Shown in pieces: positions 18,927 through 22,093 of a DNA stretch of 43,264 nucleotides. Under the pieces are notes generated by a model. That model saw only the letters and a list, made by a program, of their open reading frames with translations, was not told the DNA's origin and did not search any database. Origin of the DNA: Solirubrobacteraceae bacterium (lineage in GTDB: Bacteria > Actinomycetota > Thermoleophilia > Solirubrobacterales > Solirubrobacteraceae); contig JADGPP010000025.1 of NCBI GenBank assembly GCA_017882375.1, positions 1-43,264 on the forward strand, written 5' to 3'. The first letter of the stretch is position 1, and each line of letters begins with the position of its first letter. The position numbers and the translations under genes are program-made.

Positions 18927-19604
18927 ATGTACGCGATCATCGTCGGAGCCGGCAAGGTCGGCCGCAACCTCGCGCGAGAGCTGATCGACAAGGGTCACGA
19001 GGTCACGTTGATCGAGTCCTCGCGCCCGCGCTACCTGGCGATCGAGGAAGAGCTCGAGCACTCCGTCCAGTACGGGGACGCAACCGAGCTGTGGGTGCTC
19101 GAGCGCTCGGGCATCCAGCGCGCGGATCTGGTCATCGCGGTCACCGGCGACGACGAGGACAACATGCTCGTCTGCCAGGTCGCCAAGGAGAAGTACCTCT
19201 GCGATCGCATCATCGCGCGCGTCAACAACCCGCGAAACCACGACCACTTCCGCCTGCTCGGGATCCAGCCGGCGGTCTCCGCGACCGACCTGATCCTGCG
19301 CCTGATCGAGCACGAGGTGCCCCGCTACGGCCTCGTGCATCTGCTCGCGCTGGAAGAGGAGCGCCTGGAGATCATCGAGCTCGAGGTCAGCGCAGATGCG
19401 CCGACGGTCGGCGAGACGGTCGCCGACATCAACCTTCCCGAGGGCAGCCTGATCATCTCGGTGCTGCGCGGCGGGTCCGGCTTCGTGCCCAAGCCCGACA
19501 CGGTGATCGAGGCCGGCGACGAAGTGCTGCTCGTGCTCGACCCCGGGCTGGAGGAGGCGATCACCGCCTACTTCGCTCCGAACGGGGTGGGGAGCACCGG
19601 CTAG
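18927..19604 (+). CDS. trkA: Potassium uptake protein TrkA (KTN + RCK_C)
   Basis: A 225-residue two-domain regulator. The N-terminal KTN domain has IIVGAGKVGRNLARELIDKGHEVTLIE-type sequence, Asp at the end of beta2-equivalent ESSRPR, VQYGDATELWVLERSGIQRADLVIAVTGDDEDNM, and RIIARVNNPRNHDHF. The C-terminal TrkA_C domain covers about 140-220 (LEIIELEVSADAPTVGETV to ITAYFAPNG). It sits in the cytoplasm on a K+ channel or transporter. No TrkH/TrkG channel gene is nearby; the only transporter in the cluster is the APC-USP protein. Confidence 0.93.
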   Translation: MYAIIVGAGKVGRNLARELIDKGHEVTLIESSRPRYLAIEEELEHSVQYGDATELWVLERSGIQRADLVIAVTGDDEDNMLVCQVAKEKYLCDRIIARVNNPRNHDHFRLLGIQPAVSATDLILRLIEHEVPRYGLVHLLALEEERLEIIELEVSADAPTVGETVADINLPEGSLIISVLRGGSGFVPKPDTVIEAGDEVLLVLDPGLEEAITAYFAPNGVGSTG

Positions 19605-19665
19605 GAGTTGTCGGACGGCCAGGCTGCCGCGTACGGTTTGGCTATCATTTTTCGCCGACGCGCGG

Positions 19666-19738
19666 TCCGGGATAGTCCAATTGGCAGTGACGCCCGGTTC
19701 TGGTCCGGGAGATTGGGGTTCGAGTCCCTGTCCCGGAG
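19666..19738 (+). tRNA. tRNA-Gln (anticodon CTG)
   Basis: Cloverleaf readable: acceptor TCCGGGA / TCCCGGA, anticodon stem CCCGG / CCGGG enclosing loop TTCTGGT (anticodon CTG, Gln), T-loop TTCGAGT, discriminator G. CCA is not encoded. A TATCAT box at 19643 may be its -10. Bases 19719-19738 recur exactly at 21524-21543. Confidence 0.95.
19719..19738 (+). repeat. Attachment-site core, proximal copy (in tRNA-Gln 3' end)
   Basis: The 20-mer TTCGAGTCCCTGTCCCGGAG covers the T-loop through the acceptor 3' strand. An identical copy occurs 1,805 bases downstream; the flanking bases differ on both sides. Confidence 0.8.
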
Positions 19739-19744
19739 TTTGCA

Positions 19745-19771
19745 AAAGCCCTGCTAACAGCGGGCTTTCCT
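19745..19771 (+). terminator. Terminator of tRNA-Gln
   Basis: AAAGCCC (19745-19751) pairs with GGGCTTT (19762-19768), with an inner GCT/AGC extension, loop AAC and one bulged T. The 3' side ends TTTCCT and is followed immediately by the group II intron 5' end, the kind of site used by group IIC introns. Confidence 0.75.
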
Positions 19772-20200
19772 GTGTACGCCGGGCATGACCAGCCGCTCGG
19801 GGGTGCAAGTCCCCTGTGGAGGTTGATCGCGCCAACCACAAGCCGAGGGCAACTGCGTCGTCGCGAGGCGGGGTGGGAAGGAAGCTGGAGGCGAATTCGC
19901 GACCCGAGAGATACGAACCGCATCAGAGGCGGGGCGGCCCGGGCGAGCCAGCACGATGTGGCGAAGCCCGATGCCATCAAGGGGCCGTCACGTAAATGCG
20001 ACGGGTGCGCATGGGGTGTCTTTGATGAGGCAAACTACTGGCCAAGCAGGGCGAAACAGCTGTACGATGCGCGCCAGGACGGAAGAAGCTGTATCCTCCG
20101 CGCGCGGAGGAGTGCCTGTTGGGGGTTTTCGGCTGGCTTTCGTCCGAACAGGCTCCCTGGAGGGGGCGAGGACAATGCTCAAGGGCTAGGCGTCCTGGGG
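19772..20200 (+). mobile_element. Group II intron remnant, 5' portion (no domain V, no maturase)
   Basis: Begins GTGTACGCC, matching the GUGYG 5' consensus. It continues with a hairpin GGGG-TGCAAGT-CCCC, a second hairpin around 19815-19842, GAGGGCAACTGCGTCGT, GGAAGGAAGC and GATACGAACCGCATC, a sequence set I know from domain I of bacterial group II introns. No reverse-transcriptase ORF follows, only ATGCTCAAGGGCTAG at 20174-20188 where one might have begun. The conserved domain V hairpin (AGC ... GAAA ... GTTC) was not found. The 3' limit is approximate. The 144-codon ORF across this region is ribozyme RNA, not protein. Confidence 0.65.
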
Positions 20201-20220
20201 TGATGAGAATGGAGACAGAT

Positions 20221-21000
20221 ATGACTGGAAGGATTCCTAAGACGGCCGCGAGGCTGTCTGCGGCTATTCTCGCGGCAACTGCGCTCTTGGCCATCGTGGC
20301 TGGGACAGCGGGTGCCGAAGTGGTCTACAACAACGTTCCGAGCCCGTTGCCCGCGAACTTTGCGTCGATCGGCTTGGCGGCGACCTCCACTTCGGAGTTC
20401 GGCGGCCAGGTCGAACTCGCGGGTACAGCCCGCAAGAACCCGGAAGTGACGGTCGTGATGAGCAGTTGGACATGTGAAACCGGAGCGTGGTTCAGCAAAG
20501 ACTGCAAAACGACCAAGAACAAGACGTTCAAGGTGCCGGTCACTATCCGCATATACGGGACGGGGCCGGGAGAACTGGCCGAGCCGCCGCTCGCGGAAAA
20601 GACGAAGACCGTCAAGATGCAGTACCGGCCGTCTTCAAACCCGTCGTTGTGCCCGGGGGGGGAGACGTGGTACCAGGAATCTACAAAAGAATGCTCCCAC
20701 GGCCTCGCGTTCGCGATCGGGCCGATCAAGCTGAAGTCCAAGAAAATGCCCAAGAACGTGATCGTCACGGTCGCCTACCCACCCACAGGGCCGGCTGAAT
20801 CTCTGAACATATCGGTAAGCGAACCGCCGGAAAAAACACTGTCGGTGGGTAAACAGCCGGTGGAAGAATGGTTTGCCAACTCGAAATCGAGCGAAATGTA
20901 TTGCCCAGGAGCGAAAGACGTGGGCAAACTTGGACCCGAGGAAGGGGTGGGCTGCCAAGGAGTCAACTACCAGCCTGTGATTGCGATCAGCGCCGAATAG
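20221..21000 (+). CDS. Secreted protein of unknown function (island passenger gene)
   Basis: A 259-residue protein with a clear signal peptide: basic MTGRIPKTAARLSAA, hydrophobic core ILAATALLAIVAG, cleavage near AGA-EV. The mature part starts VVYNNVPSPLPANFAS and contains TSEFGGQVELAG, VTVVMSSWTCETG, and FKVPVTIRIYGTGPG, a pattern I associate with a secreted family of soil actinobacteria whose function is unknown. Six or so Cys, spaced for disulfides. ATG 20221 was chosen for GGAG six bases upstream; upstream ATG/GTG codons lie in the intron remnant. Codon use is less GC-biased than neighbours (frequent AAA, ATA), suggesting transfer. Followed by a strong terminator. Confidence 0.8.
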   Translation: MTGRIPKTAARLSAAILAATALLAIVAGTAGAEVVYNNVPSPLPANFASIGLAATSTSEFGGQVELAGTARKNPEVTVVMSSWTCETGAWFSKDCKTTKNKTFKVPVTIRIYGTGPGELAEPPLAEKTKTVKMQYRPSSNPSLCPGGETWYQESTKECSHGLAFAIGPIKLKSKKMPKNVIVTVAYPPTGPAESLNISVSEPPEKTLSVGKQPVEEWFANSKSSEMYCPGAKDVGKLGPEEGVGCQGVNYQPVIAISAE

Positions 21001-21030
21001 GCAAGACCAGCGATCCGGATGTGCAGCATC

Positions 21031-21065
21031 TGACGACGGCCCCGCCAATGGCGGGGCCGTCGTCA
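21031..21065 (+). terminator. Strong hairpin terminator after the secreted-protein gene
   Basis: Perfect 16-base stem TGACGACGGCCCCGCC / GGCGGGGCCGTCGTCA with the loop AAT, 30 bases after the stop at 21000. The most stable simple hairpin in the window. No T-tract. Confidence 0.85.
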
Positions 21066-21215
21066 CGTAATGACTGTCACCGAATTGGCAGGCTGGTCGC
21101 CGTTGTTGCGCTAGGGCTGGGGCTGCCGTCGGGTGGCAGCGCCGGCAGGGGCACGATGTGATACCTGCGTAGATCGTCTTACGATCGTGATCAAGTATCG
21201 GGAGGACGGACGCCG
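21066..21215. other. Spacer inside the island, no gene seen
   Basis: Between the terminator and the transposase remnant. Contains a short palindromic stretch GATCGT-CTT-ACGATC at 21172-21186 and no supported ORF. Probably decayed IS or island sequence. Confidence 0.4.
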
Positions 21216-21395
21216 TTGGCCGGCGGCGCCTGGTCTCTGAAGGAGGGCATGCAGGAGACGCTCACCGTCACTCGCCTCGGGGTCCGCGGCGCGCTGAAGC
21301 GCACGCTGCAGAGCACCAACCCTTGCGAGTCGATGATCGAGTGTGTCCGCCGATCCAGCCGCAACGAAGAGGTCGCTACGCTCGTCACCGTCTGA
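21216..21395 (+). pseudogene. IS256-family (Mutator-type) transposase remnant
   Basis: The frame from 21216 reads GGAWSLKEGMQETLTVTRLG, then VRGALKRTLQSTNPCESMIE and CVRRSSRN, which is the C-terminal region of IS256-group transposases (SL-EGM-ETLTVTRLGV ... STNP-ESMIE). After SRN it jumps to EEVATLVTV and a stop, which looks like the extreme C-terminus; the usual R-KRW...RW-AAGM...YR-LA stretch of about 60 residues is missing. No start, no catalytic DDE residues and no intact ends remain. Bases 21396-21508 may be the IS right flank. Confidence 0.75.
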
Positions 21396-21508
21396 GAATC
21401 ACACCCGGGTCGCCACCGAAGTTCCACGCCGGCCGGGACATCCTCGAACCCGGTCCGGCCCAAGCTCTGCAACCACGCGGGATTTGGCTCTAGCAGTAGG
21501 ATTGCGCC

Positions 21509-22093
21509 ATGACGCTGACACGATTCGAGTCCCTGTCCCGGAGCTCGATCAGAAAGCTCCGAATTGTGGTGGCGCAGGTAGCATTTGTGCTCGCGGCTTG
21601 CGCGGCACTGGCGTCCACCGCCCAGGCCGCCCACACGATCTCCTGGGGCAGTCCCTTGCGAACGCCCCCGTCGCGCACGCTGAGCGCACCGGTCGACGCC
21701 GCCTACTGGCAGCAGTCGGTGGCGCCGAAGGCGGGGCAGATCGTCACGATCACGCTGTGGGGCCGTGTGGCCAGCGGCCAGCCGACGATCCTCTTTCAGG
21801 ACCTGCGCCCGATCGGTGGCGGCAGGTTGAAGGTCATCAGCACGACGCAGCCGTTCAAGCTGACCGGGACGACGGCCAAGCGCACGTTCAGGCCGATCAA
21901 CTTCTTCGTGCACAAGGGCGATCACGTCGGCTTGGCGACGATCGGCGGCAGCTACGAGGTCTTCGCGGCGGCTCCCGGTGGGACGACCAACGGCTTCGTC
22001 GGCGCCGGTGGCGACATGAACGGCAGTCAGTTCAGCGGCAAAGCGCACAGCGGCATCGAACTGCTGCAGCGGATGGGCGAGCGCGTCGGCTGA
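21509..22093 (+). CDS. Secreted protein of unknown function whose N-terminus includes a tRNA remnant
   Basis: A 194-residue protein with a signal peptide: n-region MTLTRFESLSRSSIRKLR, hydrophobic core IVVAQVAFVLAACAALAS, cleavage near AQA-AH. The mature part reads HTISWGSPLRTPPSRTLSAP, then VTITLWGRVASGQPTILFQD, and ends GIELLQRMGERVG; it resembles no family I can name, though it has the look of a beta-sandwich fibre or carbohydrate-binding fold. ATG 21509 lies on the island side of the att copy, with a weak AGGA upstream. The next in-frame candidates are GTGs at 21566/21569, which would leave a signal peptide without charge. Confidence 0.7.
   Translation: MTLTRFESLSRSSIRKLRIVVAQVAFVLAACAALASTAQAAHTISWGSPLRTPPSRTLSAPVDAAYWQQSVAPKAGQIVTITLWGRVASGQPTILFQDLRPIGGGRLKVISTTQPFKLTGTTAKRTFRPINFFVHKGDHVGLATIGGSYEVFAAAPGGTTNGFVGAGGDMNGSQFSGKAHSGIELLQRMGERVG
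21524..21543 (+). repeat. Attachment-site core, distal copy
   Basis: Exact second copy of TTCGAGTCCCTGTCCCGGAG from the tRNA-Gln 3' end, without the 5' half of the tRNA, as expected for the far end of an element integrated in a tRNA gene. It lies in frame inside the 21509-22093 gene and encodes FESLSRS of its signal-peptide n-region. Confidence 0.8.

Follow-up and report, generated by a model that had tools for sequence, protein, structure and literature searches.

A fragment in the window, the whole 43,264-nucleotide stretch of DNA analysed here, is by its homology domain I of a group IIC intron, and we are confident that it is a 3′-truncated, decaying and untranslated relic without a catalytic centre that stands behind the terminator of a tRNA-Gln gene. 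The covariance model RF02001 (group-II-D1D4-3; Rfam) matched 19857-20026 with 102.7 bits (E 5e-20; gathering score, 32), and the match spans model positions 1-170, the whole model length. Thus, the covariance-model search that a preliminary description of this sequence had proposed bore out its reading of group II domain I signatures from GTGTACGCC at 19772. Its view of the fragment as a dead truncated copy was also upheld, as we found domain I only, in one copy, with somewhat more broken pairs than in intact relatives and with neither reverse transcriptase (RT) nor domain V nearby.

A DNA search with 19772-20026 over 232 genomes of the order gave 13 matches in 10 genomes. These were three full-length introns, two copies in genome G183 cut by contig ends, seven broken copies, and one match in G185 that showed no intron on rescanning and was hence regarded as chance. 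Domain I as a query finds only copies that keep their 5′ side, and the frequency of 5′ loss is not readable from these counts. Over 19774-20010, the fragment showed DNA identities of 83.5%, 80.8%, and 79.9% to the full-length introns of G069, G183, and G180, respectively. The identity to all three stops at 20010, and the covariance model stretches on to 20026. The relatives share the intron start GTACG, which lies at 19774 in the window; judging from the alignment, the GT at 19772-19773 probably belongs to the exon, since the two bases before GTACG differ among the copies. Of the extent first proposed for the fragment, 19772-20200, the presence of domain I was therefore retained, and the start was moved to 19774 and the recognisable end to 20010 (20026 by the model); the full-length relatives that had been sought to define the 3′ break served this purpose.

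In G180 (locus L121) and G183 (L122), RF02001, RF01998 (~50 bases later), an RT, and the domain V model RF00029 follow each other in this order, with RF00029 ~1.8-1.9 kb from the intron start. The G069 intron (L043) contains RF02001 and RF01998 and encodes a protein of 481 amino acids that matched RVT_1 and GIIM (Pfam) as well as group_II_RT_mat (NCBIfam). Its domain-V-like end was read by eye and is uncalled by Rfam at the gathering score.

Next, we analyzed the state of the domain I structure. In the window, 43 of the 48 pairs of the RF02001 model still stand and five are non-standard, compared to one, two, and three non-standard pairs in G069, G180, and G183; one of the five is also broken in all three relatives. 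The minimum-energy fold of 19774-20026 was no more stable than those of shuffled sequences (z 0.46), and that of 20011-20222 gave a z of -0.09. Therefore, the structure rests on homology to RF02001 and not on stability, and the folding suggested in the preliminary description lent it no support. The exon-binding site EBS1, placed by eye, would form three of five pairs, one of them a wobble, with the last five exon bases in the window (CCUGU), and the EBS1-IBS1 pairs number 5/5 in G069, 4/5 in G180, and 3/5 in G183. Two of these values speak against decay: the number of broken pairs is only slightly higher than in the relatives, and the pairing of three in five equals that of the full-length G183 intron.

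Table 1. Positions of the intron fragment and of the features around it in the window.
Feature	Positions	Strand	Basis
tRNA-Gln (CTG) gene	19666..19738	+	ARAGORN; RF00005
Terminator hairpin, 7 bp plus 2 bp around a bulged T, then CCT; 5′ exon	19745..19768	+	Read from the sequence
Domain I of group IIC intron, 5′ end intact, 3′ end broken	19774..20010	+	Identity to three full-length introns and RF02001
Position of EBS1 (ACGAU)	19953..19957	+	Aligned by eye to EBS1 of relatives
Stretch between last intron base and gene leader	20011..20140	+	Matches neither the intact introns nor the gene's relatives
5′ leader of secreted-protein gene, common to intron-free relatives	20141..20220	+	67-71% identity to G097 and G096 (G106 from 20155)
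Gene for protein of 259 amino acids, signal-peptide-like start (by eye)	20221..21000	+	ORF in the frame of 20119-21000
Second copy of the tRNA-Gln 3′ end, 23-base direct repeat, at most 2 mismatches	21521..21543	+	Repeat of 19716-19738

The start of the fragment right after the terminator stem of the tRNA, as described earlier, was confirmed (Table 1). The hairpin core at 19750-19764 was on the list of a terminator scan, whose count of two was not above that of shuffled sequences (mean 1.8). According to the accessible parts of two papers, group IIC introns insert at terminators (PMC4424553; PMC8919778), and the fragment lies, as such an intron would, behind the intrinsic terminator of tRNA-Gln. 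Among the copies whose 5′ side is covered, the window included, 10 of 11 stood behind a terminator-type hairpin as judged by eye; the chance match in G185 and the contig-cut copy in G063 are omitted from this count. In G189, ~15 bases separate the hairpin from the intron copy, and G219 holds the one copy of the 11 with no hairpin upstream.

We then looked for the parts that follow domain I in the full-length introns. No RF01998 segment and no RF00029 were found in the window at the gathering score, and none of either in 19600-21700 at E up to 5. The domain V pattern of the relatives, with three mismatches allowed, had zero matches over the whole window. Furthermore, comparison of the whole window with the intron-encoded protein of the relatives gave no credible match (best E, 0.41), and additional DNA matches of the window to the full-length introns (E 0.002 and up) were scattered and taken as chance. 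These results agree with the earlier statement that neither RT nor domain V is found, with the qualification that a diverged domain V could escape detection, as RF00029 at the gathering score misses that of G069. In the assembled genome, RF02001 matched once and RVT_1 nowhere; this assembly consists of 172 contigs without the bodies of another repeated intron, and an intact IIC copy could likewise be absent from it.

RF00029 matched four times in this genome, each time at the very start of a contig. The four domain V matches are mutually identical over 96 bases and show 84-98% identity over the whole 96 bases to copies from seven further family genomes; the scanned, uninterrupted full-length copies among those are introns of the RF02003 type (L053, L058, L059). 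Loci L055, L056, L062, and L064-L067 entered only this Rfam scan and, like L060, L061, and L063, the pattern and BLAST scans across all loci. RF02003-type and group IIC introns gave no mutual match by DNA search, indicating that the domain V copies of the genome do not represent the part that the fragment has lost. At contig ends of this genome, three 5′ ends of the RF02003-type intron were also observed. This intron is repeated and its body is unassembled, which probably explains the absence of RT from the assembly. The preliminary description had named an intact domain V and RT beside the fragment as one finding that would speak against its reading; at most half of this was found, since the domain V in the genome belongs to another family and lies elsewhere, and no RT was seen.

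The seven broken copies, namely the window, G063, G101, G189, G219, and two in G014, break at various points. The G101 copy has intron bases 1-84 only. One G014 copy (contig C1) has bases 1-106 joined to a piece of RT, with another gene behind that we take to be transposase-like, and the second (C7) consists of ~40 bases plus an oppositely directed RT piece. In G189, bases 1-41 are joined to 1211-1445 of the G180 intron. In G219 (L124 480-594), bases 11-76 are joined to 1856-1903, the domain V/VI end, of the G069 intron; a second piece of this mini-derivative type was noted at L124 928-959. The G063 copy, whose 5′ end is cut by the contig, runs up to approximately base 685 and is then lost though the contig continues. 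No relative with an identical insertion that shows the break was caught among the matches. Loss of this kind is a familiar fate: in the accessible text of PMC4424553, most bacterial copies are truncated or inactivated, often amid other mobile DNA, and that of PMC4496777 describes bacterial group II introns that decay by losing their 3′ end and leave fragments behind.

The gene that follows the fragment encodes a putative secreted protein, for which no Pfam or NCBIfam match was obtained; a contig-level search for relatives, which may omit near ones, also gave none. Its start lies on the same strand at a distance of 211 bases from the last intron base, and homology to other copies of the gene begins only at 20141, ~130 bases behind that base. 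In G097, G096, and G106, relatives of the gene with the same leader stand behind other genes, and these loci gave no domain I match, indicating that the gene exists independently of the relic. Ahead of the gene, a TTGACA-N17-TAGNNT promoter was seen by eye in the three relatives; a scan of 19550-21200 gave no promoter-like site, although with 0.3 sites expected by chance this zero says little. As a separate observation, a conserved AGCCCCTGGAGGGG-like hairpin was recognised by eye in the leader at 20141-20220 and in L069, L071, and L078, and this is possibly a regulatory RNA.

Starting from what was observed, namely domain I, its position after the terminator, the absence of the rest from the window, the intact relatives, and the independence of the neighbouring gene, we infer an order of events and the lack of any function. 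A mobile group IIC intron would have inserted, as these introns commonly do, just downstream of the intrinsic terminator of tRNA-Gln. A later deletion or rearrangement would have removed everything behind domain I, that is, the next ribozyme segment, the RT gene, and domains V and VI, and the secreted-protein gene with its own leader would have come to lie near the break. The remaining domain I would then drift as an untranslated relic.

Other explanations were weighed against this one. The preliminary description had raised the possibility of a recently described kind of ORF-less ribozyme, and a complete and active IIC-derived element resembling HYER could lie between 19774 and 20220, as the fragment is short, of IIC type, devoid of RT, and placed behind a terminator. 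HYER elements have a complete catalytic core including domain V and occur in several copies in their host. They are group IIC endonucleolytic ribozymes, as far as the accessible parts of PMC11127173 and PMC12948488 go. The fragment resembles them in its IIC ancestry and lack of an ORF; however, domain V, RF01998, and all else behind domain I were not found in the window, only a single copy is present in the genome, both folds were no better than shuffles, and the leader of an unrelated gene occupies the region from 20141. We thus consider an active ribozyme here extremely improbable. A circularly permuted group II ribozyme, in which domains V and VI are upstream of domain I (described in the accessible part of PMC8637638), was rejected, as no domain V was found upstream of domain I and RF00029 had no match in the window at the gathering score.

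The same strand and the short distance between the last intron base and the gene, together with the unrecognised promoter, could also suggest that the intron captured the secreted-protein gene, which would now ride in place of the 3′ half, as had been proposed. This can hardly be the case: the gene family occurs with the same leader at other loci without the intron, homology sets in only at the leader, no intron 3′ end was found behind the gene in the window, so that nothing seen could move it, and none of the other genomes among the 146 of the family showed domain I and the gene together. It is also very unlikely that the relic was kept because its RNA serves as a leader or regulator of this gene, and we see correspondingly little chance that domain I RNA was co-opted as a structured leader or trans-acting partner affecting it. 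The shared strand, the 43 standing pairs, and the apparent loss of the relatives' promoter would fit a leader role, but domain I lies behind a terminator, folds no more stably than shuffles, and was seen in this arrangement in no other genome. A 3′-truncated relic therefore remains our preferred reading. It resembles group IIC introns with a class C RT in its RF02001-type domain I, its GTACG start, and its place directly behind a terminator hairpin, but differs from them in lacking the RT, the segments behind domain I, and domain V. Similarly, the truncated RmInt1 copies treated in the accessible part of PMC4496777 keep the 5′ part, have lost the 3′ end, and drift, albeit in another intron class and host, and compared to these the fragment is mechanistically nothing new. 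Another decaying relic of the group IIC type in this bacterial order matters little in itself, but it shows that even a strong match to domain I is, on its own, no sign of a working ribozyme.

The surroundings of the locus look like mobile-element debris, consistent with a relic. The two copies of the tRNA-Gln 3′ end in the window are 1.8 kb apart, and four of 12 sister loci (G104, G100, G092, and G090) likewise repeat the terminal 19-25 tRNA bases at a distance of 1.5-2.3 kb downstream; among the eight loci without the repeat, that of G096 extends only 77 bases past the tRNA. These repeats likely point to an integration hot spot for elements. The tRNA-Gln gene and two genes, presumably TrkA-like, are grouped likewise in sister genomes. 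Two pieces of a dispersed repeat (21220-21366 and 21365-21445) were additionally observed, and several other genomes contain both, likewise ordered and separated by a spacer; 21220-21445 looks like a transposase remnant, and a Pfam search of it gave no match. Two candidates were set aside. A 32-base stretch at 20041-20072 with 91% identity to G058 (E 4e-4), where the matching sequence is presumably a chemoreceptor gene, probably reflects chance, and a weak sX6 match at 21013-21145 (24 bits against a gathering score of 40) was dismissed as a palindrome.

Apart from the relic, a multi-copy, RT-bearing group II intron of the RF02003 type was observed directly after the start codons of leaderless-looking genes in this genome and its sisters, and its very regular target merits separate study. 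The sites in this genome (G000) are at the starts of contigs C63, C75, C113, C158, C11, and C15 and at the end of C39, and the sister loci are L053, L058, L059, L177-L183, L197-L204, and L210. In the alignment, ATG followed the intron end at 20 of 20 distinct 3′ junctions, a count that omits nine rows aligning only at the domain V core, which are other introns (L022-L027, L055, L056, and L188). The reading frames that begin at this ATG were determined for 17 of these junctions and span between 65 and at least 500 codons; in 15 cases, this frame was longer than the other two. A start codon preceded the intron at all 16 5′ junctions aligning from base 1 or 2 (15 ATG and one GTG), with five rows that align from base 12-25 omitted (L062, L184, L185, L186, and L202). 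TANNNT was seen 6-7 bases ahead of the start codon at the same 16 junctions (13 by script, and L180, L182, and L200 by eye; no control set). The L133 junction lies within another gene and follows GCG, and it was excluded as a chance match.

The GTG case belongs to this genome, where the start of C15 resembles the sequence upstream of the same gene in sisters and is accordingly taken as the 5′ flank, with C158 as the 3′ flank. From this likeness, C15 and C158 appear to form one insertion site, in a gene that we take to be of the DNA polymerase III delta′ type. As GTG stands on the 5′ side and ATG on the 3′ side, the 3′ ATG would be the intron's own and not a duplicated target. The intron thus seems to insert just downstream of the start codon in leaderless genes and to bring along, at the 3′ end, a start codon of its own, and it may target open promoters. 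A titles-level search of the open literature, which is weak evidence of absence, found no account of start-codon insertion by such an intron. The base after the ATG was constant within each genome that has several copies, being G in G000 (4/4) and G093 (2/2) and C in G079, G083, and G076 (3/3 each). Furthermore, in one copy from G093 (L058 2221-4083), reading from the host start codon meets no stop for 620 codons and passes across the ribozyme into the RT, compared to a frame that closes after 161 codons in five other copies.
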